In this document: piece by piece, positions 37,364-55,473 of the stretch
Layout: every line of letters begins with the position of its first letter
Position numbering within the stretch: position 1 is the first letter of the stretch
Assembly: GCF_018406645.1 (NCBI RefSeq)
Contig: NZ_AP024546.1
Coordinates: forward strand, 2,728,001 to 2,792,000
Length of the DNA: 64,000 bases
Reading direction: 5' to 3'
Origin: Lysobacter helvus
GTDB lineage: Bacteria; Pseudomonadota; Gammaproteobacteria; Xanthomonadales; Xanthomonadaceae
Notes under the pieces: generated by a model
The model's input: only the letters and a program-made list of their open reading frames with translations
The model's database searches: none
What the model was told of the DNA's origin: nothing
Translations under genes and position numbers: made by a program

Positions 37364-38752
37364 CTATCGCTCCACCGCACCGATATCCGCGCGCCCGCCC
37401 ACCACGCGCGGGAAGCCTTCGCCACGCTGGTCGACGTCGAAGCCCGCCACGTTGTTGCCGCGGTTGATCGCGGGGCTGCCGGACAGCGGCCGATGCGTCA
37501 GCGTGCGCCCGCCGTTGTCGGCGAGCGGGCCGAGCATCGCGTCGGTGTTGCGGATCGTGTCGGCGGGCAAGGTGACGAAGATCGAATTCTGGACCAGGTT
37601 GTCGCTGCCGAGGATCACCGTCGGCGGCGGCCGCGGGAACGGACCGGAATTCGTGTCCTGCCCGGTGACGTCCCGGCTGATGCCGCCCAGGCACGTATTG
37701 CCCGCGAGGATCGAACTCTCCACGTGGAATTCGCCGTACAGGGTGAGCACGCCCGGGAAACAGTTGGTGTCGAATCCGGTCGTGGTGACGTTGGCGGTGA
37801 TCGTGCTGTTGACGATGGTCCCGGGGCCGATGATCTGGCCCAGGCCGATGAACGGTGCGGCGTTGCCCGAGATCGTCGAGTTCTCGATGGACGTGTTGGG
37901 CGAGAGGTTGAACCCGCCGATCGAGTTGACCGCGGTGTTGCCGGAAATCGTCGAGTAGGCGATGCGCGACGGCGTGCCTGTGCCGTGGTTGAAGACATCC
38001 ATCGCGCCGGACGAGACCCGCGCGTGATTGTCGGAGATGCTCGAGTAGGTGATGTCGACGCTGCCGAGGGCGCGGAGCCCGCCGCCGGACGCCGCCACGT
38101 TCCGGAACACGCGCGAGCGGTGCATGCGCAGGTCGCCGCCCACGAGGTCGGCGGTGCCGGGCACGATGGTGCCGAGCGTCAAGCCGCCGCCGCCCGAGGA
38201 CCGGCCCTTGGCGCCGTTGTCGTACACCGCGCTGTAGAACAGGGTGATGTTGCCCGCGGCGTAGATGCCGCCGCCCAGCGCGTCCAGGCGTGCGTATGCG
38301 CCGCAGTGCCGCACGTGGATGTCGTTGCCGTCGAAGTTGCCGGCCGTGAAGATGCAGCCCCCGTTCGCCATCTCGGCGCGGTGCTGGCCTTGTTCGATCG
38401 TCAGCCCGCGCAAGTGCAGCGTGCCGGTGCCGTCGTGCCGGAACACCGAGCTGCTGTAGTTGCCGCTCACTGCGAACCGCGCGTAGCCAGGGCCGCGCAC
38501 GGTCAGGCTGGCCTGCGGGATCATGATCGCGCCGGTGGTCAGCACGATGCGGTGGCAGGCGAGGGGACGCAGGTCGATGGTGTCGCCGCTGGTGGCCGAG
38601 GTGACCGCCGCCCGGAGGCTGCCGGCGCCACTGTCGTTGCAGTTCGTCGGCGTGAGCGTCGCGGCCCGGGCTTCCGGTGCGATGCCGAGTGCGCCCAACG
38701 TTCCGAGCAGCAGGCACGCTCCGATCGTGGTCACGGGGATCGAACGCGACAT
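37364..38752 (-). CDS. Right-handed beta-helix protein, choice-of-anchor Q type, copy 1
   Basis: A 462-residue protein with a signal peptide (cut near EARAAT), then the opening block 'TNCNDSGAGSLRAAVTSATSGDTIDLR'. Repeated parallel beta-helix coils with 'STISGN', 'GGGI' and 'STITAN' turns fill about residues 100-360. The C-terminus ends 'FDVDQRGEGFPRVVGGRADIGA'. Two homologues lie at 40422-41774 and 57803-59101. Extracellular polysaccharide- or surface-associated roles are known for related folds; no catalytic site is visible. Confidence 0.85.
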   Translation of the reverse strand: MSRSIPVTTIGACLLLGTLGALGIAPEARAATLTPTNCNDSGAGSLRAAVTSATSGDTIDLRPLACHRIVLTTGAIMIPQASLTVRGPGYARFAVSGNYSSSVFRHDGTGTLHLRGLTIEQGQHRAEMANGGCIFTAGNFDGNDIHVRHCGAYARLDALGGGIYAAGNITLFYSAVYDNGAKGRSSGGGGLTLGTIVPGTADLVGGDLRMHRSRVFRNVAASGGGLRALGSVDITYSSISDNHARVSSGAMDVFNHGTGTPSRIAYSTISGNTAVNSIGGFNLSPNTSIENSTISGNAAPFIGLGQIIGPGTIVNSTITANVTTTGFDTNCFPGVLTLYGEFHVESSILAGNTCLGGISRDVTGQDTNSGPFPRPPPTVILGSDNLVQNSIFVTLPADTIRNTDAMLGPLADNGGRTLTHRPLSGSPAINRGNNVAGFDVDQRGEGFPRVVGGRADIGAVER

Positions 38753-38895
38753 GGCACAACTCCGCGCATGGGGAGCGCGACGATGGAACCGGTGCCGTGG
38801 AGGCGGTGTGCAATTCGGGTGAATGGGATCGTGGCTCCTGCATCGTGCAAACTCAGCGATACGCCGCCTCCACTGACGCGGCATCGGAAGCCACC

Positions 38896-39363
38896 ATGAA
38901 GCGCCCGACCCAAGCGTTCCTGCTGATGACGGCCATGCTCGCCGTCGCGTCCGATGTTTTCGCTCGGGACGACGACGCCTTGGTGGAAATGTTCCATGAG
39001 ATCGCTGGTCCGGCGACAAAGACGTGGTCGCTGCGACTGGAGCCCGACGGCGACGTCGTCGAGCATCGTGGCGACTTGTCGCGGCGGCGGGAGCGCATTC
39101 GCTGCAGGCTCAGCCCGGTCGAGGCGGATCGTGTCGTGGCCTCGGCGCGACAGTGGCTGGATCCGGTGCCAACGCGGGTCAGAACCAGTGGTCCGCTCCA
39201 ATTCGACGGCCCGTACAAGACCTTGTCGGTCCGACAGGGTGCGGACCTGCGGATGTCCTGGTGGGACGCACCTGCGAAGACGAACCTCAACGCGGATGAG
39301 CAAGCGTTCGTGCGTGCGTGGAACGCGGTCGAGGCGTTGCTCGATTGCCGCGGCAGGAAGTGA
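38896..39363 (+). CDS. Secreted protein of unknown function
   Basis: A 155-residue protein with signal peptide 'MKRPTQAFLLMTAMLAVASDVFA' and GGAAG upstream. The mature domain contains 'WSLRLEPDGDVVEHRGDLSRRR' and a C-terminal 'LNADEQAFVRAWNAVEALLDC'. It is divergent from the beta-helix gene at 37364. The family is unknown. Confidence 0.65.
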   Translation: MKRPTQAFLLMTAMLAVASDVFARDDDALVEMFHEIAGPATKTWSLRLEPDGDVVEHRGDLSRRRERIRCRLSPVEADRVVASARQWLDPVPTRVRTSGPLQFDGPYKTLSVRQGADLRMSWWDAPAKTNLNADEQAFVRAWNAVEALLDCRGRK

Positions 39364-40421: not shown

Positions 40422-41774
40422 ATGCAGACCAAGCTCATCCAGTTCGCCGCCGCCGCCGGGTTGTTGTTCGCCGCGTCGGGCGCCCATGCGCAGACGTTCA
40501 CCGTCACCAACTGCAACGACACCGGGGCGGGCAGCCTGCGGGCCGTGGCGGAGTCGGCACCCGATGGCGCGGTGGTCGCGATGGATGCGTTGCCATGCAA
40601 TCGCATCGTGCTTCGCACCGGACCGATCCGCTTGCGACAGCCGGTCCTGCAGATCCAGGGCCCCGGCCTCGACAAGCTCACGGTGAGCGGCGATGGCCGC
40701 AGCCAGGTCTTCGTCCACGCGCCGCCGGCCGATGCCGCATTCACTTCGCTCGCGTTGCGCCGCTTCACCGTGTCGTGGGGCCGCGCGCTCGACGGCGAGG
40801 CGTTCGGCGGCTGCATTTCCACCACCGGCGGCGTGTCCCTGCAGGACATGCAGGTCCACCACTGCCTCGCGCGCGATAGCCGCAGTGGCGGCGATGCCGG
40901 CTACGGCGGCGCGGTGTACGGCGGCGCCGGCGTCGTGCTCACCCATTCGATCGTGCATACCAATCGCGCCGACGGTGGCGACGGCGGTGGCGTGTATTCC
41001 GGCGGCCCCATCAGCGTCAACAACAGTCGCGTCTCGAACAACCAGGCCTCGGGTAACGGCGGTGGCTTCGTCGCGCTCGAAGGCGCGCACGTGGAGCTGA
41101 GCAACGTCACCAGCAACGTCGCCGGCGGCGTCGGCGGCGGCATGTGGGTGGACGGCACGGGCCAGACGGACCGGCTCATCACGATCATGTTCTCGACCAT
41201 CGCGCGCAATCGCGCGCACACGGCGGCGGGCGCGTACTTCTCCGCCGCCAATTCCACGCGCCTCATCGAGAGCACCGTCTCGGGCAACGTCGCCGACGAA
41301 AGCCAGGGCGGCGTGGTGTTCGACGCGGGTTACATGACCCAGGAAGTCATCAACAGCACGATCACCGCCAACCGCGCGCTCGCGCCCGGCGCGGCCGGAT
41401 GCCTGGGCAGCGGCGCGTCGGTGCGCATGCGCTTGCGCCTGAACAGTTCGATCGTCTCGGCCAATACCTGCGCCGGGATGCCGGACGACCTGGCGAGCGT
41501 GGACGATCCCGGCGCGACCGGCGCGCTGGGCAACAACAACCTGCTCGGCGCGATCAACCTCGTGTTCACCGGCAACGGCACCGTGCGCACCAACAGCCCG
41601 CGGCTCGGTGCGCTGGCGTTCAACGGCGGCGTGACGGAAACGCACCTGCCCCTGGCCGACAGCCCGGTCATCGACAAGGGCAACAACAGCCCGGGATTCG
41701 CGACCGACCAACGCCGGCGCAACTTCGTCCGGGTGAAAGGCGCGGCGGCGGACATCGGGGCCGTGGAGCGGTGA
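40422..41774 (+). CDS. Right-handed beta-helix protein, choice-of-anchor Q type, copy 2
   Basis: A 450-residue protein. Its signal peptide (cut near SGAHAQ) and opening block 'VTNCNDTGAGSLRAVAESAPDG' match the copies at 37364 and 57803. Beta-helix coils carry 'STVSGN', 'STITAN' and glycine-rich 'GGGVYSGG' turns, and the C-terminus ends 'FVRVKGAAADIGA'. It is plus-strand, unlike its two homologues. The SpoIIAA-like gene follows after 18 bases. Exported; the ligand is unknown. Confidence 0.85.
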   Translation: MQTKLIQFAAAAGLLFAASGAHAQTFTVTNCNDTGAGSLRAVAESAPDGAVVAMDALPCNRIVLRTGPIRLRQPVLQIQGPGLDKLTVSGDGRSQVFVHAPPADAAFTSLALRRFTVSWGRALDGEAFGGCISTTGGVSLQDMQVHHCLARDSRSGGDAGYGGAVYGGAGVVLTHSIVHTNRADGGDGGGVYSGGPISVNNSRVSNNQASGNGGGFVALEGAHVELSNVTSNVAGGVGGGMWVDGTGQTDRLITIMFSTIARNRAHTAAGAYFSAANSTRLIESTVSGNVADESQGGVVFDAGYMTQEVINSTITANRALAPGAAGCLGSGASVRMRLRLNSSIVSANTCAGMPDDLASVDDPGATGALGNNNLLGAINLVFTGNGTVRTNSPRLGALAFNGGVTETHLPLADSPVIDKGNNSPGFATDQRRRNFVRVKGAAADIGAVER

Positions 41775-41792: not shown

Positions 41793-42164
41793 ATGCAGCA
41801 TGACGTCACCGCACTGGGGCCGGACATCGTGGTCGTGCGCTACTTCGGTCGGCTCACGATCAAGGAACGTTGCCAGACCCTGGTGCGCGCAGGGCGTGCC
41901 TTCCACCCCGACGCGAGTCCGAAGAAGTTGCTGGTCGACTACTCCTACGCGACGCCCGCCGTGGAAAACGCGGACGCCGGCATCGACTTCATGAGCCGGG
42001 TCATTGCCGCGCCCGACGTCGACGATGGCCTGCTCGCGATCACCGGCACGCTGTCCGCCGACTTCCTCAACCCGGTGCTCGGGGCGTGCGCGACGAAAGG
42101 GCTGACGTGCCGGGTGTTCTCCGACTACGACCTGGCGCTGGATTGGCTTCGGCGCGCGCCATGA
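41793..42164 (+). CDS. SpoIIAA/STAS-like protein, second copy
   Basis: A 123-residue protein with 'IVVVRYFGRLTIKERCQTLVR', 'SPKKLLVDYSYATPA', 'DDGLLAITGTL' and a terminal 'SDYDLALDWLRR'. The strand/helix order matches the protein at 10010-10369 despite low identity. There is no signal peptide. It likely binds a small hydrophobic ligand or partner protein. It lies just downstream of a beta-helix gene. Confidence 0.7.
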   Translation: MQHDVTALGPDIVVVRYFGRLTIKERCQTLVRAGRAFHPDASPKKLLVDYSYATPAVENADAGIDFMSRVIAAPDVDDGLLAITGTLSADFLNPVLGACATKGLTCRVFSDYDLALDWLRRAP

Positions 42165-42238
42165 GCGCATTTGCAGACCTCTGGATCCCACCCAATAATC
42201 CGGCGCACCGTTGACCGAATCCGCAAGGAGTGCAACGC

Positions 42239-42784
42239 ATGACGCCGGAGACGTTCATCGCGGAGTGCCGCGACTGCATCGCATCGGGCGGCGGACCTGC
42301 GGACATCGCAGCGCTGGTCCGCGCCGCCCTGGTGTCGCAGCGCGACGATCCTGCGTGGCAAGGGCGCGACGAATTCCTGTATCGGTCCGCGGCGCTGCTG
42401 ATCGTCAACGTCACGCTCCCGCCGCACGGGGCGACGCCGGTGCACGACCACGGCATGTGGGCCGTGGTCGGTGTGTCCAGCGGTTGCGAGCTCGATCGCT
42501 TCTACGTGCGCGGGCGCGATGGCGGACTGGACGTCGTTGAAGACATCACCGTCCCCGCCGGCACCGCCATCGCAATGGACGCCGATGCCATCCATGCCAT
42601 CTTCAATCCGTTGCCGATCGAAATGCGCGGCATCCACGTCTGCGGCGGCGACATGGTGAGCGCGCCGCGCAACATGTGGCACCCGCAGACAGGCGACATG
42701 CTGCCGTACGACGGCAAGGTGTTCGAGGAATGGTGCGAAGCCCTCACCCGTGCGGCGAGGCCTGCCCAGGCACCGGCCTGTTGA
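42239..42784 (+). CDS. Cysteine dioxygenase-like cupin protein
   Basis: A 181-residue protein with AAGGAG eight bases before the ATG. The cupin motif 'PPHGATPVHDHGMWAVVGVSSG' supplies the two metal histidines (HDH), and a later 'DADAIHAIFNPLP' supplies the third. The layout follows the cysteine dioxygenase/PCO group of iron thiol dioxygenases; cysteine specificity is not shown. It lies 49 bases upstream of the LOV regulator and may be its target or partner. Confidence 0.75.
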   Translation: MTPETFIAECRDCIASGGGPADIAALVRAALVSQRDDPAWQGRDEFLYRSAALLIVNVTLPPHGATPVHDHGMWAVVGVSSGCELDRFYVRGRDGGLDVVEDITVPAGTAIAMDADAIHAIFNPLPIEMRGIHVCGGDMVSAPRNMWHPQTGDMLPYDGKVFEEWCEALTRAARPAQAPAC

Positions 42785-42833
42785 ACCCGCCCGTCCCGTG
42801 GCAGAAAATCCGCCGGAAGCGCGGCGAGCGACC

Positions 42834-43478
42834 ATGGCGACGACTCCTTCCATCGCGGACGAGCAGGGCCTCGCCTTCGAGCGCGCGTTGATCGCGTCGA
42901 TCCACCTCTCGCCGATCGCGACGATCCTCACCGACCCGCGGCTGCCCGACAACGCGATCATTGCGGTGAACCGCGCGTTCTGCGCGTTGACCGGCTACGA
43001 AGCGCACGAGGTCATCGGCCGCAACTGCCGGTTCCTGGCGGGCGATGCCGGGGAATCGCCCGGCCGCATGGCGTTGCGACAGGCCGTGGCGGAAGCGCGC
43101 CCGGTGCTCGTGGAAGTGCGCAATGTCAAAAAGGACGGCACGCCGTTCCGCAACGCGGTGATGATCGCGCCCGTGCTGCTTCCCAATGGCGACGTCGGGT
43201 ATTTCCTCGGGTCGCAGATGGACGTGGGTAGCGCGCGTGTTCCCGCGCAGACCGCGGATGACGCGACGCGGAAGGTGCGCGCCCTGACGCGCCGCCAGCG
43301 CGACGTGCTGCTGGGCATGCTGGCAGGCAAGCTCAACAAGCAGATCGGCGCGGACCTCGGCATCGACGAAAAGACCGTCAAGATGCATCGCGCCGCGCTG
43401 TTGAAGCGCCTGGGGGTGCGGACGACCGCGGATGCGATTCGCCTCGGGATCGAGGCAGGGATGTTCGGGCTCCCGTAG
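42834..43478 (+). CDS. LOV-domain blue-light receptor with LuxR-type HTH
   Basis: A 214-residue protein. A LOV/PAS domain (about residues 20-135) carries the photoadduct cysteine motif 'GRNCRFLAGDAGESPGRMAL', the flavin-contact 'VNRAFCALTGYEAHEVIG', and the switch glutamine in 'GYFLGSQMDV'. A LuxR/GerE HTH (about residues 150-205, 'LTRRQRDVLLGMLAGKLNKQIG') follows. This order matches the LOV-HTH activator EL222 of Erythrobacter. It is a light-regulated transcription factor by family knowledge. Target genes are unknown; the adjacent cupin gene is a candidate. Confidence 0.9.
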   Translation: MATTPSIADEQGLAFERALIASIHLSPIATILTDPRLPDNAIIAVNRAFCALTGYEAHEVIGRNCRFLAGDAGESPGRMALRQAVAEARPVLVEVRNVKKDGTPFRNAVMIAPVLLPNGDVGYFLGSQMDVGSARVPAQTADDATRKVRALTRRQRDVLLGMLAGKLNKQIGADLGIDEKTVKMHRAALLKRLGVRTTADAIRLGIEAGMFGLP

Positions 43479-43550
43479 GGGGCCGCGCGGGGTCCTACCT
43501 GCTTTGGTCTGTATTGCGGGTCTGCGGGCGCGTTCCATCACTTCGGGTCG

Positions 43551-43880
43551 ATGTGCCGCGCGCCACGCTTCCGGTCCGTGGATCTGTCCGATTTCAGGTG
43601 GCACGCCGTGGGGCCCGAGTCCGGGTGCAGTGACCTGCACCTGCGCCGGGGCGGTGCGCGCGGCGAACTGTTTGGCCTGGTCTGCAAAGGGAGCGGGGCG
43701 GACTACCTCGCGATCGTCGGGCTGCAACCGGGGGCGGACGTGGCGCGGATCCGGTGTGCGTCGGAGCTCGACGCCATCGATGCGGTGGAGGGGTGGTTGG
43801 TGCAGTGGCAAGCCGAGTCGATGGGCGAGGACGCCTCGGCTTTGGAATCCGGGGATGAGGTGGCTCGATCGGTTGGATGA
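43551..43880 (+). CDS. Hypothetical protein
   Basis: A 109-residue soluble protein: 'VDLSDFRWHAVGPESGCSDLHLRRGGARG' and 'YLAIVGLQPGADVARIRCASELDAID' followed by an acidic C-terminus. There is no signal peptide or TM segment. No family is recognised. Confidence 0.55.
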   Translation: MCRAPRFRSVDLSDFRWHAVGPESGCSDLHLRRGGARGELFGLVCKGSGADYLAIVGLQPGADVARIRCASELDAIDAVEGWLVQWQAESMGEDASALESGDEVARSVG

Positions 43881-44708: not shown

Positions 44709-44741
44709 GCGCTTCGGCCGATCGCTGGCAGTGGTCATCGG

Positions 44742-44769
44742 TGGCTGCTTTCGACCCGCAGCGGACGTT
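44742..44769 (+). repeat. B-type boundary palindrome (first copy)
   Basis: TGGCTGCTTT.CGACCCG.CAGCGGACGTT, a slightly diverged B variant. It lies between the genes at 44181 and 44820 and starts the repeat-bearing region. Confidence 0.75.
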
Positions 44770-44819
44770 CGCATGCGCTGCTAGGCTTGGCCAACCGGTC
44801 CACTGCATGGTTGGGCAAG

Positions 44820-45119
44820 ATGACGACAGAACGCGCGGCGGGGCTTCCATCGATCGTCCTCTACGCCTTGCCGCCGCTGTCCTTGCTCACGTTGTATGGC
44901 GCGGTCGTGTCCAGCAGCACCGTTCTTGCGCCGCTGCTCGGCGCCCTCTGCGCAATGTCAATGTTCGCTGAGCTGATCGTTTTTCCTGCCTGTCTTTTTG
45001 CGTTCGTCCGCTATCCGCACTTGCGGTCATGGCCCCAGGCGGCCGGTTTGGCGCTGATCGGCGCGCACCTTCTTTCGACGGTTTTGCCCTTGTTTGTTTT
45101 GATGAGTGCTGGCGTCTAG
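44820..45119 (+). CDS. Membrane protein, three predicted TM segments
   Basis: A 99-residue protein starting MTTERAAGLPSIVLYALPPL, with hydrophobic stretches at about 10-28, 32-60 and 75-95. The first B-type repeat lies 50 bases upstream. No family is recognised. Confidence 0.6.
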   Translation: MTTERAAGLPSIVLYALPPLSLLTLYGAVVSSSTVLAPLLGALCAMSMFAELIVFPACLFAFVRYPHLRSWPQAAGLALIGAHLLSTVLPLFVLMSAGV

Positions 45120-45220
45120 CGCAAGCATCACGACAGTCGGACATGCATCACGACCACGATCCTGCCGTCGCGAATTGGTAGTCTGACGGCGCATCCACAT
45201 CTAGACCGTCAGCCGCCGCA

Positions 45221-45679
45221 ATGGAAAACGTCGTCACCCCCTGTGCCTTTTGCGGGACGCCGATTGCGGTGGGCTTCTGGCGCTACCTGCCCAGCAAGCC
45301 CCCAGTGGACATCCATTGCCCGAAGTGCGGCGGTCGAAACAACATCAACCGTGGATCCATCGGGCTTGCCGTTGCGACGCTCTTGTTCTTCACCTTCCTC
45401 GGCGTTGCACTGGCCAGGACAATCCAAGGCGCGGAATGGGGCGTGCTGGCCGTGCCCATCGCCTTCGCCGTGGGGGTGTGGCCCGCTGCCTTCCTTGGGT
45501 CACGCAGGCCTGGCCTGGTCAAGTACGCGCGGTGGTGGATCCGGCCAACGCCCACTTTGTCCGACGCGGACCGTGCGTTGATGGACCAGCTCGGCGTGAC
45601 GTACAACGGGGAATACTTCATCGTCGGCGAGATGCACTTCGACCATCTGGGCGACGCGGTTGCCTTTGCTCGATCCTGA
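45221..45679 (+). CDS. Zinc-ribbon membrane protein
   Basis: A 152-residue protein. The N-terminus has two cysteine pairs ('CAFCGTP' and 'HCPKCGGRNN') forming a zinc ribbon, then two TM segments (about 48-68 and 73-93) and a soluble C-terminal part with 'LMDQLGVTYNGEYFIVGEMHF'. The next gene also has a CxxCGGR pair. Role unknown. Confidence 0.7.
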   Translation: MENVVTPCAFCGTPIAVGFWRYLPSKPPVDIHCPKCGGRNNINRGSIGLAVATLLFFTFLGVALARTIQGAEWGVLAVPIAFAVGVWPAAFLGSRRPGLVKYARWWIRPTPTLSDADRALMDQLGVTYNGEYFIVGEMHFDHLGDAVAFARS

Positions 45680-45717
45680 GCGTCAGAGCTGACACCGGCA
45701 TTGCGAGATTCTTGCGA

Positions 45718-45999
45718 ATGGACCCCGCAGATCCAATCGAGTGGCGGCAATACCGGCAAATGCGCCTGTTCTATTGGGCTGCATTTTCCGCAGCCGTGGC
45801 GTTCGTCGTGTTCGGCAGCGACGACAAGGCGCTCATCGCGCTGGTGGTCCTGGCCGTCCTCTCCATGGGCGTCGCCTTCTGGCCCTGTCCGCGATGCGGC
45901 GGACGGGTCGGCTACATTGGCCTGGGGCCTTTCATGATGCTCTGGCCTTTCGGCGGTTGGTGCACGACCTGTAGTCGCAAGTTGTTCGGGCGGAAGTAG
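45718..45999 (+). CDS. Small membrane protein with zinc-ribbon motif
   Basis: A 93-residue protein: 'MDPADPIEWRQYRQMRLFYW', TM segments at about 17-35 and 39-55, then a CxxC ribbon ('CPRCGGRVGYIGLGP') and a second pair (CTTCSRKL). The order is the reverse of its neighbour at 45221, with TM first and ribbon last. The two may be co-regulated. Confidence 0.65.
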   Translation: MDPADPIEWRQYRQMRLFYWAAFSAAVAFVVFGSDDKALIALVVLAVLSMGVAFWPCPRCGGRVGYIGLGPFMMLWPFGGWCTTCSRKLFGRK

Positions 46000-46035
46000 C
46001 GCGCTCGATTCGCGGACACGCGGCCGCACCGCACG

Positions 46036-46389
46036 TCACGCGTGCACCAGCGCCTCCGGTTCCGGCAACGCCTCGGAAGCCGGGTCGAAGTCTATGATGG
46101 CCTTCAACTGGTCGCTCTTCGGGCAGAAGTGCGGATAGACCTTCCGCACCTGCCAGTTCGCGGCATCCCACGCGTAGGTGTACCGCGGGCACCGGGTGCC
46201 GCCGTACACGTCGCAGGACACCAGCCAATCCCCCTGGTCCTCGGGGCCGAATGGATCGGCCGGCATGGCGCGGCCCACGATCGTCCCCGTGCTGTCCACG
46301 AGGTCCTGGAACACTTGATTGCGCACGAACAGGATCCGTACGCGGCAGCCAACGTAAAGCACTCCGCCCCCTGCAAAGAACACGTCCAT
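46036..46389 (-). CDS. Hypothetical protein
   Basis: A 117-residue protein from ATG with AAGG upstream; a TTG at 46428 would add 13 residues. It contains 'MDVFFAGGGVLYVGCRVRILFVRN' and a cysteine-containing segment 'DWLVSCDVYGGTRCPRYTYAWD'. No signal or TM segment is clear. It is minus-strand, with a B-type repeat beyond its 5' end. Confidence 0.55.
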   Translation of the reverse strand: MDVFFAGGGVLYVGCRVRILFVRNQVFQDLVDSTGTIVGRAMPADPFGPEDQGDWLVSCDVYGGTRCPRYTYAWDAANWQVRKVYPHFCPKSDQLKAIIDFDPASEALPEPEALVHA

Positions 46390-46475
46390 CCCCGGGTGCC
46401 TTATGGCCGATTCCGCGAGGGGGTTCAATGACGCGCTGCACAGAAAGCAGAGCGGATCGGGTTCGCGGGATCGAG

Positions 46476-46503
46476 TGACTGCTTTCGACCCAAAGCGGAC
46501 ATT
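46476..46503 (+). repeat. B-type boundary palindrome
   Basis: TGACTGCTTT.CGACCC.AAAGCGGACATT, a near-consensus B variant in the divergent gap between the minus gene at 46036 and the plus gene at 46579. Confidence 0.85.
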
Positions 46504-46578
46504 CGGTCTGCCGGTCGCGCCGAATGACCAGCTGCGTTAGCCTGCGCGCTCGGCGCGAATCAAACCACGAGCAATGAC

Positions 46579-46749
46579 ATGGGGAACGCGCTTTCCGTAA
46601 TCGTTGGCATCGCAATCCTGATCACGTTCTTGGTCCTGGTCGCCTACGTCACATGGTTGTTCGCGGTTCGACTTCGAAACAAGGAACCCGCGGCAAAGTC
46701 GTTCCTCCGGTGGCTAAGGGACCTCTTTGATCTCGCGCTGGGCCTTTAG
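46579..46749 (+). CDS. 56-residue single-TM protein
   Basis: MGNALSVIVGIAILITFLVL begins a TM segment (about residues 5-29), followed by a basic/amphipathic tail 'RLRNKEPAAKSFLRWLRDLF'. It is flanked by a B-type repeat upstream and an A-type repeat downstream. No family is recognised. Confidence 0.5.
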   Translation: MGNALSVIVGIAILITFLVLVAYVTWLFAVRLRNKEPAAKSFLRWLRDLFDLALGL

Positions 46750-46781
46750 TCGCCCTGGCAGCCGAATAGACGCCGCGCGCG

Positions 46782-46810
46782 ATGTCCGCTCCTGGCCGGA
46801 AGCGGACATT
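46782..46810 (+). repeat. A-type boundary palindrome
   Basis: ATGTCCGCTC.CTGGCCGG.AAGCGGACATT in the convergent gap between the plus gene at 46579 and the minus aspartyl protease gene. Confidence 0.85.
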
Positions 46811-46855
46811 CCCCATTCCCCCGATCGCTGCCTCAGGCCGATAACGAACCGCCAC

Positions 46856-47704
46856 TCACCGCGTCGGCCGAATCCACAGGCGATCGTCCGCAAGATCGAA
46901 ACTGAGCTTCCAACGCACGAGCACCGGCATGCCGATGACGCCGTCGAGGATCATGTCCTTGACGAAGGCGCGCGTGTCGAGCGCGGGGGTATTGGCCACC
47001 ATCAACCGGAACGGCTGGAGTTCCTGGTTGGCCGGCTCCGCGCCGGCGGCTTTGGCCACGCGATCGCGAACGAGCACCGGTGGTCCGCCACCGCTGTCCA
47101 GGGCCATCCACAGTTCGCCCTGCGTCGTCTGTATCGGCACCATGACCCCGAGGGCCGCACCGCCGGCCTGGCGCGCACGTCGCATGGGCGTCGGCTTGGC
47201 GTTTTTCGTTTCCGCGGCCAGCGTGTCGGGCGATTCGATGACGAGCGTGCCGTTGCCCAGGTCGAGCGAGAACTGCATGCCGTCGAAGGCATCCAGTGCC
47301 AGCGATCCATCGGCCTGCGGTGCGCCCTTGAACAACAGGGGCTGGAGGTCGATCACGCCGGCCGCCACCGGCTTCAACGCCGTGCCGTCGGGCAGGGTGA
47401 AGCGCACGTTCTCGCACCGCGGCAAGTCCAGGCGCTGGCCATCCAGGCGGAAGCCGGTGAGCGCCGCCCAGGGCGTGCACCCGATCTTCTTCGCGAACGC
47501 CGGCGACAGCAGGCTGACGCCCCCGCCGGTGTCGAGGGTGAACACGCCTTCGTGGCCGTTGACCTTCAGCCGCACCGACCGGAGCCGGCCGCCGAAATCG
47601 CCGAGTTCGATGGGTTTGGGCGTGGGCATGGGAACAACCTGGGGCGCGGGCACATCGGCGGCGGCGGTGAGCAGCACGGCGGACAGCAACGGAGTCAGCA
47701 TCAC
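46856..47704 (-). CDS. Retropepsin-like aspartyl protease, secreted
   Basis: A 282-residue protein with a signal peptide (MMLTPLLSAVLLTAAADVPA). An aspartyl-protease motif 'GVFTLDTGGGVSLLSPAFA' (about residues 53-72) and a second 'LWMALDSGGGPPVLV' (about 197-211) form the two DTG/DSG-type sites of a pepsin-like fold, as in other bacterial retropepsin-like proteins. Periplasmic. The substrate is unknown. Confidence 0.8.
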   Translation of the reverse strand: MMLTPLLSAVLLTAAADVPAPQVVPMPTPKPIELGDFGGRLRSVRLKVNGHEGVFTLDTGGGVSLLSPAFAKKIGCTPWAALTGFRLDGQRLDLPRCENVRFTLPDGTALKPVAAGVIDLQPLLFKGAPQADGSLALDAFDGMQFSLDLGNGTLVIESPDTLAAETKNAKPTPMRRARQAGGAALGVMVPIQTTQGELWMALDSGGGPPVLVRDRVAKAAGAEPANQELQPFRLMVANTPALDTRAFVKDMILDGVIGMPVLVRWKLSFDLADDRLWIRPTR

Positions 47705-47821
47705 GGGGTCCTGTCGGGGGAGGGCGCGGGTTTCGCGTGCTGGTGTTTTATCTAACTACACCACCTTGGGGCACCTGCCGGAAGTCACCATCGTCCAACC
47801 GCCCGCCGCTAGAGTGGAGCG

Positions 47822-48269
47822 ATGGGGAGTTTCCTGGACCGGATCTGGATCGTCCTGGGCATGTCGCTCGACGTGCCGTTATCCCTGTGGCCGGTGAGTC
47901 TTGCCCTGGTCGCCGCCGCGAGCTGGTCCATCTGGTCGTTGCGCAAGACCCGACGATGGGCGTCGCGCAAGGTCGTCCTGACATCGGCGCTTTCGGCGCT
48001 CGTGTTCATCGCCTTTCCCGTCTATGCGGCGGCGTTCTGGCCAGAGCATCCGCACAGCGCGTTCGCGATGCAGGAAGCGTCCGGCCGCTGGATGGCCCGC
48101 CACGATCCTCGCGTGGCTCTGGTGGGGCTACATGGCGTGCATGCTGCTCGTGCCGGTGTTTGCCAGGCACGACCGCCTCCCGCTGGCAGGCCTGTCCGCC
48201 TTCATGCTTTGGGTGAACTTCGGGGTTGCTTTCGTTTGCATCCTTGCGGTCGCGGGCATGGGGCTTTAG
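47822..48269 (+). pseudogene. Membrane protein, frameshifted
   Basis: The first frame gives 'MGSFLDRIWIVLGMSLDVPL' to 'QEASGRWMARH' with two TM segments; one inserted base near 48110 moves the reading to 'ILAWLWWGYMACMLLVPVFA', which supplies two more. The end is 'CILAVAGMGL'. Rejoined it is about 148 residues with four TM segments. It may be decayed or a consensus error. Confidence 0.7.
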
Positions 48270-48316
48270 TCATGCGCATTCGAAGCACACCGTTCAACGC
48301 CGCAAGCGAGCCTGCA

Positions 48317-48712
48317 ATGAACAACGAAAACCTGGACTGCATCCGCGCCTATCTCGCCGATCTCGCCGCCGGCACGACGGGCGAGCGACTGGCCGCGTAT
48401 TTCACCGCCGACGTCGTGCAGATCGAGTATCCCAATCGCCTCAACCCCAACGGCGGTCGAAGCGATCTCGCCACCCTGTTGTCGCGCGCCGAACAGGGCC
48501 AGCGCGTGCTCCGGCAACAGTCCTACCAGGTCACGTCCGAGATGGCGCAGGGCGATCGCGTCGCCGTGGAAGCATTGTGGACGGGCGTGCTGGCGGTGCC
48601 GCTCGGCAGCCTGGCGCCCGGTGCGGAAATGAAAGCCCACTTCGCGATGTTCTTCGAACTCGAGCACGGCAAGATCCGCGTGCAGCGCAACTATGACTGT
48701 TTCCAGCCGTAG
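48317..48712 (+). CDS. NTF2/SnoaL-like protein
   Basis: A 131-residue protein: 'CIRAYLADLAAGTTGERLAAYF' then 'DVVQIEYPNRLNPNGGRSDL', with 'AVEALWTGVLAVPLGSL' and the final 'AHFAMFFELEHGKIRVQRNYDCF'. This strand-helix pattern and length are typical of nuclear transport factor 2-like cone folds. An ATG at 48272 is an alternative start. Function unknown. Confidence 0.75.
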   Translation: MNNENLDCIRAYLADLAAGTTGERLAAYFTADVVQIEYPNRLNPNGGRSDLATLLSRAEQGQRVLRQQSYQVTSEMAQGDRVAVEALWTGVLAVPLGSLAPGAEMKAHFAMFFELEHGKIRVQRNYDCFQP

Positions 48713-48740
48713 CAGGCGGTTGCAAGAGAGGCAATTCGTC

Positions 48741-49229
48741 ATGGGAAACATGGAAGCCAAGCGAAATGCAAATCGACGTGGCGCATTGCGCGCTGCACAC
48801 TATTTTTGCGCGGCCACGACGCTGTTGCTTGCAGCCCAAGCGCAGGCGCAGGCGCTGATCGTCGAAGCGCGTGATCTCGATGCTGCGTGTCCATGGGACA
48901 GTGCTTCGCGGTGCGCAAGAATCGTTTTACACGCTGGCGATGGCGGCAGCACCTTCAACGCCTCGTCGGACGAGGCAGGTGTTCTTGTTTACGGGCGCGA
49001 TCTGCAACTGCAGGTGTGGAAGAACGGGCAATGGACTGCATTCGCCCCGATCCTGGGGACATTCGAGGCGCCCGATGCAAGCGTGTTGCTTCGCGAGGGC
49101 GCGACGTGGGTGAATTACGTCGATGTCACTACGGCGCTGGACGTCGCTGGCCAGACCAAGTATCGCGTGGAGGTCAAGGATGCTTCTGGCGCCGCTTACG
49201 TGTCTCCGACGTTTGCCTTGACCAAGTAA
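48741..49229 (+). CDS. Secreted protein of unknown function
   Basis: A 162-residue protein with AGAGG before the ATG. A basic n-region (KRNANRRGALRAAHYF) and signal core end near QAQAQA. The mature domain is beta-rich ('VLVYGRDLQLQVWKNGQWTAF', 'TKYRVEVKDASGAAYVSPTF') and looks like one Ig-like or jelly-roll unit. Confidence 0.65.
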   Translation: MGNMEAKRNANRRGALRAAHYFCAATTLLLAAQAQAQALIVEARDLDAACPWDSASRCARIVLHAGDGGSTFNASSDEAGVLVYGRDLQLQVWKNGQWTAFAPILGTFEAPDASVLLREGATWVNYVDVTTALDVAGQTKYRVEVKDASGAAYVSPTFALTK

Positions 49230-49242
49230 GGCATCGAGCGCC

Positions 49243-49695
49243 ATGAAGACGTTGACGATCGCCTGTTGCCTCTTCCTCCTTGCCGGCGTGGTGCACGCGG
49301 ACGGCTTGCCAAAGGCGGGGCGCTATGTCGGCAAGGTGCTCGTGTTCGATTTGACGGACGATCAGAAGCACGAGATCGCGCACTTCAGGACGTGCCACCT
49401 TGCGCGATTCAAGACAATGAACCCGTACACGCCTTACGTGTTCCAGCTCACGCCAGGGCAACGCAAGGGGCTCGTGCGGGACGTGGGCTTCGCGCCGACG
49501 TATTTCGAAGTCGAAGAAACGTACCGCGGTTTCAACGAAGCCGGCCCGCACTGGAACGTGGCCTTGCGCTTCTCGCACGACCAGATCGAGGTACCGCTGG
49601 ACTTGTTGCTTCCCGATGCGGAGGCAAGGAAAGCGGTCGATGCGCAAGGGTGGAAGACAACGAATCCGTGCTTCCCGAAGGTCGGGGAGCATTAG
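49243..49695 (+). CDS. Secreted protein of unknown function
   Basis: A 150-residue protein with signal peptide 'MKTLTIACCLFLLAGVVHA'. The mature part contains 'GKVLVFDLTDDQKHEIAHFRTC' and 'WNVALRFSHDQIEVPLDLLL', and a terminal cysteine near the end (NPCFPK) may pair with the first. It lies 13 bases after the previous secreted-protein gene, in a probable two-gene unit. Confidence 0.65.
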   Translation: MKTLTIACCLFLLAGVVHADGLPKAGRYVGKVLVFDLTDDQKHEIAHFRTCHLARFKTMNPYTPYVFQLTPGQRKGLVRDVGFAPTYFEVEETYRGFNEAGPHWNVALRFSHDQIEVPLDLLLPDAEARKAVDAQGWKTTNPCFPKVGEH

Positions 49696-49713
49696 TTGCC
49701 ATCGGTCATCGCA

Positions 49714-49740
49714 TGACCGCTTTCGACCCAAAGCGCACAT
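49714..49740 (+). repeat. B-type boundary palindrome
   Basis: TGACCGCTTT.CGACCC.AAAGCGCACAT, close to the B consensus. It lies downstream of the gene at 49243 and 62 bases before the gene at 49802. Confidence 0.85.
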
Positions 49741-49801
49741 GAAGCGGTAGCCTCCTCGGCGAACTTCCCTGACAACCCCCAGACCCCGGCACGCACTCCC
49801 G

Positions 49802-50314
49802 ATGACCCGAGCCTTCGTTGCCACCGCAGTCTTGATGCTTGCGCTCGCTCCTTCCCGAGCCGCATCCGTACCGCCTGTCCCGCTTCCATCAGAGGCGGCG
49901 ACAAACAGCGCAGCCGCGTGCGCCACGCCCAGGACCATGGCGGCAGTGCGACCGTCGGGGAAAAGCTACGAACTTGTATTGACCGTGGAAAACCCGGGTG
50001 CCGAACCTCTGGCGCTCGTGGATTACTACTTTTTCGAAAACATGCTGGACCTTCGCGCCGTTCCGTCGGGAGAGTCGAACGGGTTGGCGCTCATCGTGCC
50101 TCTCCTGAGCCCAGGCCCACGCCCGCTCATTGTTGCGCCCTTCGCAAAGATCGAAAGAACGTATCAACTTTCCGCCAGCTTTCCAGCGTTGGAGAAGACG
50201 CTCGAGAGCAAGGATGTTCTTGTCTCCTGGCAATTGACGTTGGCAGGAGAAAAAGTGTGTTTTTCCCAGAAGCTCGCAAGTTCTGCCTGGCTGCGGAAGC
50301 GAACAAAGTCGTAG
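49802..50314 (+). CDS. Secreted protein of unknown function
   Basis: A 170-residue protein with signal peptide 'MTRAFVATAVLMLALAPSRA'. The mature beta-rich part includes 'KSYELVLTVENPGAEPLALVDYY' and 'DVLVSWQLTLAGEKVCFSQKLA', suggesting an Ig-like sandwich with one disulfide. The B-type repeat precedes its start. Confidence 0.65.
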   Translation: MTRAFVATAVLMLALAPSRAASVPPVPLPSEAATNSAAACATPRTMAAVRPSGKSYELVLTVENPGAEPLALVDYYFFENMLDLRAVPSGESNGLALIVPLLSPGPRPLIVAPFAKIERTYQLSASFPALEKTLESKDVLVSWQLTLAGEKVCFSQKLASSAWLRKRTKS

Positions 50315-50369
50315 TCGAACGTCCGCTCCTGATAAATTGCGTGACCCGAACCGCTGTGGGCGTACAGCC

Positions 50370-50741
50370 ATGCTCCGATTCGCGCGGATTGCCCTTGCAT
50401 TGATGCTGGCCACGCTGGCTGGCTGCGGCGGGCAGGGGACACCTCCCAGCGACGCGCCCGACGCAGCCCACGTTCCGCCGCCGCCTGACGTTGGGGATAT
50501 TGCGCACTACAACGGTTGCAAGAGCCTACCGACGCGCGCGCTGTCGCCGTACGAAACGTGCTTGGTCGACAGGTTGAAGGCGGCAGCGTGCACGCCGGCC
50601 GCCGATTGCGTCCTCACCTGTTTGGCCAGTCCAGATGGCACCGAGGTTGGTGGCGGTTGTGATCACGTGTGTTTCGGCTACAACGTGCGTCACCAGTGGA
50701 AGGATCGTCCGAACGCCATGGACGAATGTCCGGGACGGTAA
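50370..50741 (+). CDS. Lipoprotein, cysteine-rich
   Basis: A 123-residue protein with signal peptide and lipobox 'ALMLATLAGC'. The mature domain has eight or more cysteines ('NGCKSLP', 'YETCLVDRLKAAACTPAADCVLTC'), pointing to several disulfides. The C-terminus is 'NAMDECPGR'. No family is recognised. Confidence 0.7.
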   Translation: MLRFARIALALMLATLAGCGGQGTPPSDAPDAAHVPPPPDVGDIAHYNGCKSLPTRALSPYETCLVDRLKAAACTPAADCVLTCLASPDGTEVGGGCDHVCFGYNVRHQWKDRPNAMDECPGR

Positions 50742-50754
50742 GGGCGGTGGTGCC

Positions 50755-50780
50755 GGCTATTGGCCGAAATCAGACACCCC
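50755..50780 (+). repeat. Degenerate A-type palindrome
   Basis: CCGGCTATTGGCCGAAATCA then GACACC keeps the A-type loop (TGGCCGAAA) but has lost much of both arms. It lies between the genes at 50370 and 50824. Confidence 0.4.
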
Positions 50781-50823
50781 GGTATCTTCTGGATACAGCG
50801 GCTGAACCAGGAACTTGCACCCC

Positions 50824-51180
50824 GTGGGCAACATCGTGAATTACGCGTTTCTTGCCTTCTTGGGCGTCATCGTCTGTGTCGTGTTGTATCGCCTGGTGCG
50901 TTATCGCAGCCTTGCTGGCGCGCGCTTCGGCGCCGCGACGGTTGCACTCGGCGAGGTTGCAGCCGCGGATTCCTTCCACATGCCCGTCCGGGTGCGGGTT
51001 CATTCGCTGGAGAGCGCCGTCCCGTATCGCGGCGTTGGCCTGGAGTTCGTTGCAAAGGCGCTGGGGCATATCCGGGTGATGCCTGTCACCCTGTCGAACG
51101 CGCAGGCCCTGCAACTGGCAAAGCTGCTGTCGGAGGCTGCCGGCGAGCGGCCTGGCAACTCGCTTCGCGAGTCGGATTGA
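50824..51180 (+). CDS. Membrane-anchored protein
   Basis: A 118-residue protein from GTG (VGNIVNYAFLAFLGV) with AGGAAC upstream. It has one N-terminal TM segment, then a soluble domain: 'VRVRVHSLESAVPYRGVGLEF' and 'VTLSNAQALQLAKLLSEAAG'. No domain is recognised. Confidence 0.6.
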   Translation: MGNIVNYAFLAFLGVIVCVVLYRLVRYRSLAGARFGAATVALGEVAAADSFHMPVRVRVHSLESAVPYRGVGLEFVAKALGHIRVMPVTLSNAQALQLAKLLSEAAGERPGNSLRESD

Positions 51181-51196
51181 TGCGGGCGTTGCGAAA

Positions 51197-51223
51197 GTCC
51201 GCGTCTGGCCGATAGCGGCCACT
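51197..51223 (+). repeat. A-type boundary palindrome
   Basis: GTCCGCGT.CTGGCCGA.TAGCGGCCACT, a diverged A variant in the convergent gap between the genes at 50824 and 51239. Confidence 0.65.
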
Positions 51224-51238
51224 CGTCGGGAAGCGCGA

Positions 51239-51534
51239 TCAGGGGCTCCGGAGGACTTGCGATGCGAGTGGTTGTGACCGCCCATCAGGCGAGGTCGCGG
51301 ACGGCGTGGCGAGCTGTTCCGTGACCTCAAGCCGACGGACGACAAGGTGGTCGATCTCGAGTCGCTTGATGCGTGCCCGGCCGATGACCAGGCGGCCGAT
51401 GACCAAAGCGCCGACGCCGCCGCGCCAAGGGCCATTGCGCCCAGCGTCATCCCGCCCAGCGCCAGGGCGCCCGTGGATTGCGCGCCGACCGCCTTTGCGG
51501 GGACGGCGCTGGCGCGCGTGTGTTCGCGTTTCAT
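51239..51534 (-). pseudogene. Repeat-rich small protein, frameshifted
   Basis: The first frame reads 'MKREHTRASAVPAK' then Gly/Ala-Leu repeats ('ALALGGMTLGAMALGAAA'). After one missing base the continuation is 'VGALVIGRLVIGRARIKRLE' then 'DHLVVRRLEV'. This alternating small/hydrophobic pattern is a recognisable small-protein type in Xanthomonadaceae. Rejoined length is about 98 residues. The function is unknown. Confidence 0.65.
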
Positions 51535-51639
51535 GGGTTTGAAGGTTGTCGGCGAGTGTCCTGGTCGAGGGGACGGCGCAGGCGACGCAAATCGGCCAGC
51601 ATTCCGTGAAGCGCGCCTCCGTAATTGCAGGGCCATGGG

Positions 51640-51666
51640 TGGCCGCGTTCGACCCAAAGCGGACAT
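51640..51666 (+). repeat. B-type boundary palindrome
   Basis: TGGCCGCGTT.CGACCC.AAAGCGGACAT in the divergent gap between the minus pseudogene and the plus gene at 51710. Confidence 0.8.
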
Positions 51667-51709
51667 ATGGGAGCATCTCCTGAATTCGGACTACCCCGGG
51701 GCAAGTTCC

Positions 51710-52075
51710 ATGGAAGATTTCGCAGTCATGGTTCTGTGGATTACGAGCTTGCTGCTCCCCGCGTTGATCTTCCTCGCGGCGGACCGTTTCAAATCGTTAC
51801 TGGCGACAGCAACAGTCGCGCTCATCGCAATCGGAATTGGATGGGCTTTCATGCTCGCTTATGCGGTGGCAGCGCAATGCATCACCGCTAACGGCCCAGC
51901 CCAAGTCAACGGCCCAGCCCAAGTCAACGGCGCAGCGCTCGCGTTCGCGGACGTCTTTGGCTGGGTTCTTCCCGCTGTTGTCGTAGTTGTCACCTGGCTG
52001 ACGTCGAGAGCGGTTTTGCGCGTTGCTGGTCGATCCTTGCCCGTCAGTTCGCGTGTCGGGGCTGACCAACCTTGA
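51710..52075 (+). CDS. Membrane protein with tandem 18-bp duplication
   Basis: A 121-residue protein: 'MEDFAVMVLWITSLLLPALIF', further TM segments near residues 33-56 and 76-97, and a basic tail. Between TM2 and TM3 an 18-base unit is duplicated in frame (GPAQVN twice, 51893-51928), a likely recent slippage product. The family is unknown. Confidence 0.6.
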   Translation: MEDFAVMVLWITSLLLPALIFLAADRFKSLLATATVALIAIGIGWAFMLAYAVAAQCITANGPAQVNGPAQVNGAALAFADVFGWVLPAVVVVVTWLTSRAVLRVAGRSLPVSSRVGADQP

Positions 52076-52217
52076 GGTCGCCAGGCATGGAAGCGAGTGA
52101 GCTATTGCGATATTCGCGACGCGGTAATCCGCCCTCTTGGCATGAGCGGAATAAGAAAAAGTCTTGCTCGCCGGGTCGGGGCTCGTGCAGAAGACAATGA
52201 TCCAATCCATGACGAAC

Positions 52218-52243
52218 ATCCGCTATTGGCCGAAGTCGACATC
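52218..52243 (+). repeat. Degenerate A-type palindrome
   Basis: CATCCGCTATTGGCCGAAGT then CGACATC keeps the A loop and the last half of an arm. It is the only recognisable feature in the 236-base gap before the metalloprotease gene. Confidence 0.45.
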
Positions 52244-52311
52244 CGACCGAGGTTGAGGCTGCTCATCCACGCCCGCTATCATCAATGTGGGGACATCGTC
52301 GGGGGCAGGAA

Positions 52312-54933
52312 ATGCAGGCTCGGAAAGCCGCGGGCGTGGCGCTCGCAGCAGGCGCTTGTGCGCTCGGACTCTGGTTCGCTTCGTCCACGCCGTACGCGGC
52401 GCGAAATGCGCAGGCCACACGCGTTGCCGCGCGCGACGCCCAAGGGACGCGCGTCGGACCGCCGACCATCGCCGTGGATGCACTGCCCGCGACGAACGCG
52501 CAACGCGGCATCCCGTTCGCATTGACACGCAGCGTGGCCGAAGCCGCGGTACGCGAAGGCGTACTGCGCATCGCCATCGCCGACCAACGCGGCTTCGACG
52601 TCGCGATCGAACGCGACACGCACGACGGTTTCGGCAACTGGCAGGTGATCGGGCGCGTGCAAACGCGCCTGGGCCCGCAGGCAATGGTGGCGACGTTCGG
52701 CAAACGTGCGGTATTTGCCGTGCTGCCCTTGCCTGATGGCCGCACGTTGGAAGTGACCACGGATCACGGCGCGACGACGATAGCCGAAGCCGGCGGGCTG
52801 GTGCCGGAAGGCATGCAGGGACTTGCGGCGAACAACGATGCTTTCGACGTCCGCGAGATCCCCGCGACCAAGGTGCACGATATCGCAACGACGGACGCCA
52901 GCACGCGGGTGCAATTGCCCACGTTGCGCACCGACGGGCTGCAGGCGCTCGCGGCGGAGGCGACCGGCGAGGTCACGATCAATGTGCTCGGCCTGTATGG
53001 CCCGGACTTGATCGCGCAACTCGGCGACGAAGAGAGTGCGCGCACCGAAGTCGCGCACATGCTCGCAGTCGCCAACCAGGCGCACGTCGACAGTGGCTCA
53101 CGGATTCGGCTGGCGTTGGCGGGCACGCTCGCGATCAGCAATCCCTACGACGCCAACACGACGGCGTTGTACGGCATCCAGAACACGAGCCACAACGTAG
53201 GCATGCCATTCCCGGTCGAAGCCGGACGCTGGATCGCATCGGCCGACCTGGTCTTTCTCGCGCGACCACGCGGGGCGGTCGATGCGACCTGCGGTGCTTC
53301 GTTCCGCATCGCCGAGTCGACGGGCCGCAACACGCTCAAGCGCGCCTTCGCCTTCGCCGTCGCCAATGTCGCGCCGTGCAGCCCGTATGCGTTGAGCCAC
53401 GAACTCGGCCACCTGCTGGGCAACGCGCACGATCGCGACACCGAGGGCTACGACAACCAGGATGTCGTCCGGCACGGCGTGCTGCCGTATGCATCGGGCT
53501 ATCGTCAGTTCGGGTCGCCCGCGTTCGCCACGGTCATGGCCGATCCCTCGGGCCTGCCCACCCTCAACGTCTTTTCGTCACCGTTCTCGTCCGCGTGCGG
53601 TGCGCCGTGCGGCATCGCAGACGAAGCCGACGAAGTGCGGTCGATGAATTCGATCGCCGCGGAAATCGCCGACTTCGCCGGCGCGCCCGACACGGTCACC
53701 TTTGGAAACGCCGCGGGTTTCGAGCCACTGGCCGGCGAGAACAGCCGCTGGATCGTCGCGTGGGCGAACTACAACGCCCCGATGTTCCCGCAGGGTTTCG
53801 CTGGCTTCGACGTCGCGGTCGTCGGCGGCACGGCGACACAGGGCGTGGATTACAAGCTCTCTTCCGCGTTCGTCAACGGCGGCGGCAACGCCGCGCAGGT
53901 CTTCGTCGAGGTCCTCCCGGACGAGATCGTCGAACCCGACGAAACAATCCTGCTGCGCATTACATCGCGGAATGGCTGGCCGATCGACAAGGACACTGCG
54001 ACGATTACGATCCTCGACGATGATCCACGTCCCGTGATCCGCGGCGCGGTGCGCTTCGACGGCGTGTCGAAGCCGAGCGGCCCGTTCAATCTCCAGGCCC
54101 GCGCGGGAAACGGCAATCACTTCGACGACGGCGGCATGGTGGTGCAGGTCGCCTCGCCTGACTATGCGTTCGCCTTCCCGGTGGTGCGCGGCACCTCGCC
54201 CTATCTCACCTTCGACAACACTTGCTGCAGCGCGCGTTACGCGGTGCCCGTGTGGCTGACCGATGTGCGCGGCGATCTCACGCGTGACGTCACCTTCCGC
54301 GCGGCGTATCACGTGCTCCTGCGCGGCATCGATTCGGGTAAGCAGTTCATCGATATCGGGCAGGGGCCGCCGGTTGAGTATTCCGGCGGGGGCTACATCG
54401 ATCGGATGGTGCCGGGCGGCGCGCGGGTCACGTTCTACGACCGGAACCAGCAAGGCACCGTCGCGGGCTTCTTCGACGACGTGCGGCAGAACATCGATGC
54501 CACGTTCGCCTACACGCCGACGACAAAGGTCCTGGTCTCGGCGCCGAAATCCGTGCGCGAAGGCGACGCCGGCGTGCGCCGAGTGCGCTTCGACCTGAAG
54601 GTGCTGACGACCATCCTCGCGCCGATCGAGTCGATCACGCTCGACTGGCGCACGCGTTCGGGCACGGCGACCGAGGGCAGGGACTTCGTGGCCGCATCGG
54701 GGACGCTGGTCATCCCTGCGGAGGCCATAGCGTCGTCGTATTACACAGACCCGAGGGCGGCGTCGTTGTACGTGGACATCCTCGGCGACACGTTGCCCGA
54801 ATCGGCGGAGTGGCTGGAACTCGAGCTCACGCCGGCCACCGAGGGCGTCGAAGCAGTGCCCGCGCGCACAAGACTTACCCTGCGAGACGACGACCATCGC
54901 ACATCGACGCCATTGCCGGCTGAGAAACTGTAA
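52312..54933 (+). CDS. Secreted zinc metalloprotease with Calx-beta domains
   Basis: An 873-residue protein with GCAGGA before the ATG and a signal/anchor at residues 5-24. The protease domain holds the reprolysin-type zinc motif 'SHELGHLLGNAHDRD' (about residues 361-375; HExxHxxGxxHD) preceded by 'YGIQNTSHNV'. One Calx-beta domain lies at about 463-565 ('VVGGTATQGVDYKLSSAFVN', 'VEPDETILLRITS') and a second at about 743-870 ('WRTRSGTATEGRDFVAASGT'). Calx-beta domains bind calcium and usually mediate surface adhesion. Extracellular protease; target unknown. Confidence 0.85.
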   Translation: MQARKAAGVALAAGACALGLWFASSTPYAARNAQATRVAARDAQGTRVGPPTIAVDALPATNAQRGIPFALTRSVAEAAVREGVLRIAIADQRGFDVAIERDTHDGFGNWQVIGRVQTRLGPQAMVATFGKRAVFAVLPLPDGRTLEVTTDHGATTIAEAGGLVPEGMQGLAANNDAFDVREIPATKVHDIATTDASTRVQLPTLRTDGLQALAAEATGEVTINVLGLYGPDLIAQLGDEESARTEVAHMLAVANQAHVDSGSRIRLALAGTLAISNPYDANTTALYGIQNTSHNVGMPFPVEAGRWIASADLVFLARPRGAVDATCGASFRIAESTGRNTLKRAFAFAVANVAPCSPYALSHELGHLLGNAHDRDTEGYDNQDVVRHGVLPYASGYRQFGSPAFATVMADPSGLPTLNVFSSPFSSACGAPCGIADEADEVRSMNSIAAEIADFAGAPDTVTFGNAAGFEPLAGENSRWIVAWANYNAPMFPQGFAGFDVAVVGGTATQGVDYKLSSAFVNGGGNAAQVFVEVLPDEIVEPDETILLRITSRNGWPIDKDTATITILDDDPRPVIRGAVRFDGVSKPSGPFNLQARAGNGNHFDDGGMVVQVASPDYAFAFPVVRGTSPYLTFDNTCCSARYAVPVWLTDVRGDLTRDVTFRAAYHVLLRGIDSGKQFIDIGQGPPVEYSGGGYIDRMVPGGARVTFYDRNQQGTVAGFFDDVRQNIDATFAYTPTTKVLVSAPKSVREGDAGVRRVRFDLKVLTTILAPIESITLDWRTRSGTATEGRDFVAASGTLVIPAEAIASSYYTDPRAASLYVDILGDTLPESAEWLELELTPATEGVEAVPARTRLTLRDDDHRTSTPLPAEKL

Positions 54934-54983
54934 CAGCGGGTTTTCGCAAGGCACGGTTGACGACCGGGGGTGTCCATTGTTGA

Positions 54984-55011
54984 TGTCCGGTTTCGATCCA
55001 AAGTGGACATT
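54984..55011 (+). repeat. B-type boundary palindrome
   Basis: TGTCCGGTTT.CGATCC.AAAGTGGACATT, a B variant with a GATCC loop. It lies between the metalloprotease and the gene at 55037, 26 bases before the ATG. Confidence 0.8.
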
Positions 55012-55036
55012 CCGCATTCGCGCTAGCTTATTGCCG

Positions 55037-55387: not shown

Positions 55388-55414
55388 CGCTCGGTAAAGT
55401 GTTGACCATGGCGA

Positions 55415-55443
55415 GTGTCCGCTTCTGGCCGATAGCGGACACT
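55415..55443 (+). repeat. A-type boundary palindrome (A+B pair)
   Basis: GTGTCCGCTT.CTGGCCGA.TAGCGGACACT. Start-to-start distance to the B copy at 55474 is 59 bases. It lies after the gene at 55037. Confidence 0.9.
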
Positions 55444-55473
55444 CGGTCCCCCGGTAGATTCTTGGCCCCTGAG

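Follow-up and report, generated by a model that had tools for sequence, protein, structure and literature searches.

EL222 of Erythrobacter litoralis (structures 3p7n and 8a5r) is a standard optogenetic tool. According to two papers, blue light induces a cysteine-flavin adduct, the helix-turn-helix (HTH) is freed, and dimerisation and DNA binding follow; the protein has been put to use as an activator or as a repressor, depending on the position of its site (PMC4428443, PMC9614035). A third paper gives the consensus site as RGNCYWWRGNCY and the natural site known as peak B as ACCTAGACCAAAGCAGGTAGT (PMC10521638). The portions of the literature surveyed treat EL222 as a tool and do not state its natural control targets.

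The window, a stretch of 64,000 nucleotides from Lysobacter helvus (contig NZ_AP024546.1), encodes a protein of this family and, beside its gene, a predicted EL222-type operator. The operator is the most useful result of the analysis.

A rare EL222-family regulator in Lysobacter helvus

The gene at 42834-43478 on the forward strand, from an ATG to a TAG codon, encodes an EL222-family LOV-LuxR one-component blue-light regulator of 214 amino acids, consisting of a LOV domain (about residues 22-132), a linker helix (about 138-149), and an HTH domain (about 150-210). Pfam identifies PAS_9 (E 2.9e-14) and GerE/LuxR (E 1.6e-15), while the top PDB match is EL222 (8a5r, E 2.5e-52; 3p7n, E 6.1e-52), with an alignment that is colinear through LOV, linker, and HTH and a pairwise identity of 47%. 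The adduct cysteine, Cys65, corresponds to C75 of EL222, and Asn97, Asn107, and Gln128 correspond to N107, N117, and Q138; none of the four varies among the alignable relatives. The recognition-helix residues E179, T181, K183, H185, and R186, which keep the E-x-T-x-K-x-H-R pattern of EL222, are invariant across 80 rows. These matches bear out the original prediction of a 214-residue LOV-LuxR protein with an adduct cysteine, a conserved glutamine, and a C-terminal LuxR HTH in the domain order of EL222. The AlphaFold model (mean pLDDT 90.9) retrieves EL222 as its top Foldseek matches, and its LOV/HTH arrangement differs from the docking in the EL222 crystal (rmsd 16.9, pTM 0.61).

The two proteins are alike in domain order, length, adduct cysteine, flavin-contacting Asn/Asn/Gln set, GRNCRFLAG motif, and recognition helix. 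They differ in the remaining sequence, in the gammaproteobacterial host and gene neighbours of the window protein, and at individual positions, including Y108 of EL222, which is Val in the window protein and Tyr in all 79 other aligned rows. Isoleucine also replaces V41, L52, and V121 of EL222, while A79 and E84 are retained as Ala and Glu. Among 82 family rows, Ile is the rule at position 52 (76 rows), common at position 121 (24), and rare at position 41 (4). AQTrip, an engineered, slow-reverting EL222, carries V41I, L52I, A79Q, and V121I. One source describes AQTrip as having Ala79Gln "among others" (PMC10300134), and another gives it a half-life of about 30 min (PMC8938947). The three isoleucines common to AQTrip and the window protein make dark recovery of interest, and it is possible that the window protein recovers more slowly than EL222.

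On sequence grounds, the gene is a true but rare member of the EL222 family, and this assignment is firm. Among 297 genomes of the bacterial family, only the window's own contains a full-length match; other matches extend chiefly over the LOV domain or the HTH. In an order-level sample of 397 genomes, the gene was found in the window genome and three others, these three from one genus, in agreement with Dyella records identified by their names among the relatives. These relatives, the best 80 EL222-like loci (L048-L127, with up to 6 kb on either side), are mostly alphaproteobacterial, mainly from Sphingomonadales; the proteins from Sphingomonadales, Brevundimonas, and Dyella show 48-62% identity. 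Photochemical and HTH residues are kept across these loci, and several of the nearest share the operator motif with the window. In the tree, two rows of which (L066 and L121) are badly extracted sequences, the window protein is grouped with soil alphaproteobacteria; its branch is long (1.4), and support for the placement is weak (91/59). Horizontal gain of the gene is likely. None of the genus's four other genomes aligns collinearly with the DNA at 39.8-46 kb, so this region is variable.

Recurrent neighbours in the 80 loci include ispH, lycopene cyclase, a photolyase-related protein, GTP cyclohydrolase I, and rhodopsin, none of which was seen beside the window LOV gene. An FAD oxidoreductase occurs in 28 of the loci, GTP cyclohydrolase I in 21, and the photolyase-related protein in 11, a photoprotection-like setting.

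A candidate operator and the gene it precedes

The predicted operator, CTACCTGCTTTGGTCT, occupies 43495-43510 on the forward strand, 16 bases after the LOV stop codon. All 16 of its bases occur, consecutively and in reverse complement, in peak B, the natural site of E. litoralis. This match was first spotted by eye in the flank and tested afterwards: when 41.7-44.2 kb was dinucleotide-shuffled 1000 times, with both published sites (peak B and the C120 operator) and all offsets allowed for, the longest shared word was 11. The 16-mer has a single exact copy across the genome of 3.27 Mb, where the closest other places differ at 3 of 16 positions, and three-mismatch matches are rarer genome-wide than those of the reversed pattern. 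Peak B departs from the 5-bp consensus RGNCY in its second half. Neither exact nor one-mismatch copies of the published consensus were found in 41.5-43.9 kb, and a scan of the window with the 12-bp consensus gave 23 one-mismatch matches against 35 expected, none near the cupin or LOV genes. The regulon scan of the genome itself found no second strong operator site; relaxed motif matches are no commoner genome-wide than those of the reversed control, which gives no indication of a larger regulon.

Downstream lies a small gene at 43551-43880 on the forward strand, restricted to the genus and proposed as the light-regulated target. It encodes 109 amino acids from ATG 43551 or about 100 from GTG 43578, and it looks like a real gene because two further members of the genus have homologues. 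The two best homologues begin with M-N-L-S, which aligns with V-D-L-S at the GTG, and on this alignment GTG 43578 is the more likely start. In the 16-nt frame of TACCTGCTTTRGNCYA, the operator lies 39 nt from the ATG and 66 nt from the GTG (40 and 67 in the 43495-43510 frame); no clear -10/-35 elements were seen 3' of it. The homologous loci contain no operator copy within 2 mismatches, and the two genomes that have these loci gave no full-length LOV-LuxR match. A single-sequence AlphaFold prediction of the 109-residue protein gave a model too poor to use (pLDDT 49).

Within the 80 loci, the operator motif pattern occurs exactly in L048, L101 (two copies), and L105 and with one mismatch in L054 and L059, compared with 0 exact and 0-1 one-mismatch copies for the reversed and eight shuffled patterns. 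The comparison with these controls is descriptive only, since the pattern was written after the sites had been seen; it is the match to peak B that serves as an independent test. Five of the six copies, including those in L054 and L059, lie 5' of ispH, an assignment tested in L048 (LytB, PF02401) and made by clustering elsewhere, and one lies 5' of a Pyrid_ox_like gene (PF16242). Read in the direction of the gene, the four exact copies are TACCTGCTTT or TACCTACTTT, and the start codon follows after 52-63 nt; the window operator has the same orientation toward its next gene and a similar spacing. Lycopene cyclase is nearby in L048 and L054. In the tree, L054, L059, and L101 fall within the weakly supported group of the window protein, with L048 and L105 just outside.

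The consensus is not enriched 5' of the LOV gene in the 80 relatives. In Brevundimonas loci, the interval that separates the LOV gene from a rhodopsin gene contains a different site, TACGGCCTAAAGGCCGTA, which matches the consensus exactly. This site was observed in L081, L086, L091, L110, and L122 (one base off in the last), some 630 bases past the point where the LOV match begins, and its position before a bacteriorhodopsin-like gene suggests light-controlled rhodopsin expression.

The cupin gene, the repeat-rich flank, and competing readings

As predicted originally, a cupin gene stands 49 bases 5' of the LOV gene. It runs from ATG 42239 to TGA 42784 on the forward strand and encodes 181 amino acids; the originally stated range, 42239-43478, thus extends from the first base of the cupin gene to the last of the LOV gene. 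The proposed metal histidines of the cysteine dioxygenase type are likewise present, as H68, H70, and H122 align with the ligands of these enzymes and form a three-histidine site. Thiol dioxygenases of this type are also defined by a Ser-His-Tyr triad. The S-x-H-x-Y of the dioxygenases 4qm8 and 6xb9 reads G-I-H-V-C in the window cupin, where the triad His (His132) is kept and Ser and Tyr become Gly130 and Cys134. Ser is absent from many cupin homologues too, while Tyr is found in all of them and Cys is unique to the window protein. With two of the three triad residues missing, the name thiol dioxygenase is unsupported, although the protein is a cupin by sequence and shares the HxH...H ligands; no Pfam or NCBIfam family was matched at E 0.01. 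At a cut-off of E 1e-15, homologues are scarce, occurring in 7 other genomes of the 398 in the phylum sample and in none of the plasmids, phages, and viral contigs searched, and the nearest found show 30-37% identity. Directly 5' of the cupin gene, 41793-42164 encodes a 123-residue protein of no recognised family. Each of the genus's four other genomes has distant homologues of it, with four copies in one of them (G102).

Could the LOV protein control the cupin, as a sulfur-oxygenating enzyme, in the small light-response unit originally proposed? The two genes are adjacent and co-directional, and no close homologue of either was found elsewhere in the sample of 297 genomes of the bacterial family, which includes four others of the same genus. 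A cupin homologue is nevertheless found near the LOV gene in 0 of the 80 EL222-like loci, so the linkage is specific to the window genome as far as tested. No EL222 site with 0 or 1 mismatch occurs 5' of the cupin gene or in the 49-base gap, the operator lying instead 3' of the LOV gene, and together with the altered triad this leaves the proposal unlikely. The regulator is accordingly the well-supported half of the original interpretation, and the module with a sulfur-oxygenation enzyme the unsupported half. Some features nevertheless speak for a link between the genes: both are rare and co-directional, and a sigma-70-like match, TTTGCA-18-AATAAT, lies 5' of the cupin gene at 42170-42199 on the forward strand (1 found against 0.1 expected). 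This match is a possible promoter for both genes, which are therefore probably co-transcribed.

The alternatives for the operator itself concern its origin and its target. In one alternative, the LOV protein functions as a photoreceptor, while the 43495-43510 site is a decayed copy of the intergenic palindromic repeats that abound in this region and has no regulatory role; this origin of the site is improbable. At least 17 copies of one repeat type are present at 44.7-63.8 kb, and the repeat core on the other strand, GCTTTGGG, is close to the GCTTTGG of the 43495-43510 site; however, the longest peak B word elsewhere in the window, all repeat copies included, is 9, and the same operator is found 5' of ispH in relatives. 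Feedback from the 3' side, in which the target of the operator would be the LOV gene itself or a joint cupin-LOV transcript rather than the small gene, is equally doubtful. The closeness of the operator to the LOV stop codon and the exact consensus sites directly 3' of the LOV gene in Brevundimonas speak for it. Yet the next gene 3' of those sites is the rhodopsin gene, sites in near relatives precede other genes, and the orientation and spacing of the window operator suit the small gene downstream.

The repeat-rich flank at 44732-63808 contains two families of palindromic intergenic repeats of about 30 nt, TGACCGCTTTCGACCCAAAGCGGACATT and ATGTCCGCTTCTGGCCGAAAGCGGACATT, placed at many gene boundaries, the listed families having as many as 17 and 14 members. 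It is a run of short ORFs, mostly on the forward strand, in which G+C falls to 0.60-0.66. An integron cassette reading was rejected, as a strict pattern found no attC cores, and Rfam and tRNA scans found nothing. Related secreted-looking proteins are encoded at 37364-39019 (reverse strand), 40422-41774 (forward strand), and about 58484-58624; the first two share the motif NCNDxGAGSLRA. DNA repeats lie between the copies, and a further DNA match occurs in G000 at 2116653-2117976.

Proposed mechanism and meaning for the EL222 family

The favoured reading, which the sequence evidence makes probable, is that a patchily distributed EL222-family blue-light factor controls a promoter adjoining its own gene through 43495-43510. 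In the dark, the LOV domain would hold the HTH; under blue light, a Cys65-flavin adduct would form and lead to a dimer. This light-state dimer would bind 43495-43510 and raise or lower transcription of the small gene, from ATG 43551 or the likelier GTG 43578. The LOV gene itself would probably be transcribed with the cupin gene from the promoter-like 42170-42199, with the cupin as a passenger or in an unproven role.

A broader and more tentative proposal, which may well not hold, is that one old operator, TACCTGCTTTRGNCYA, is common to the EL222 family across Alpha- and Gammaproteobacteria. Through it, EL222-type proteins of sphingomonad relatives would switch stress genes as well as isoprenoid and carotenoid supply (ispH), and in the window genome an imported regulator and operator would have been rewired to a genus-specific small gene. 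The recurrence of the operator 5' of ispH and a pyridoxamine-oxidase-like gene makes these named candidate natural targets, and the Brevundimonas site before the rhodopsin gene provides a further one. The presence of the motif before other genes in near relatives hints at a natural role for the EL222 light switch.
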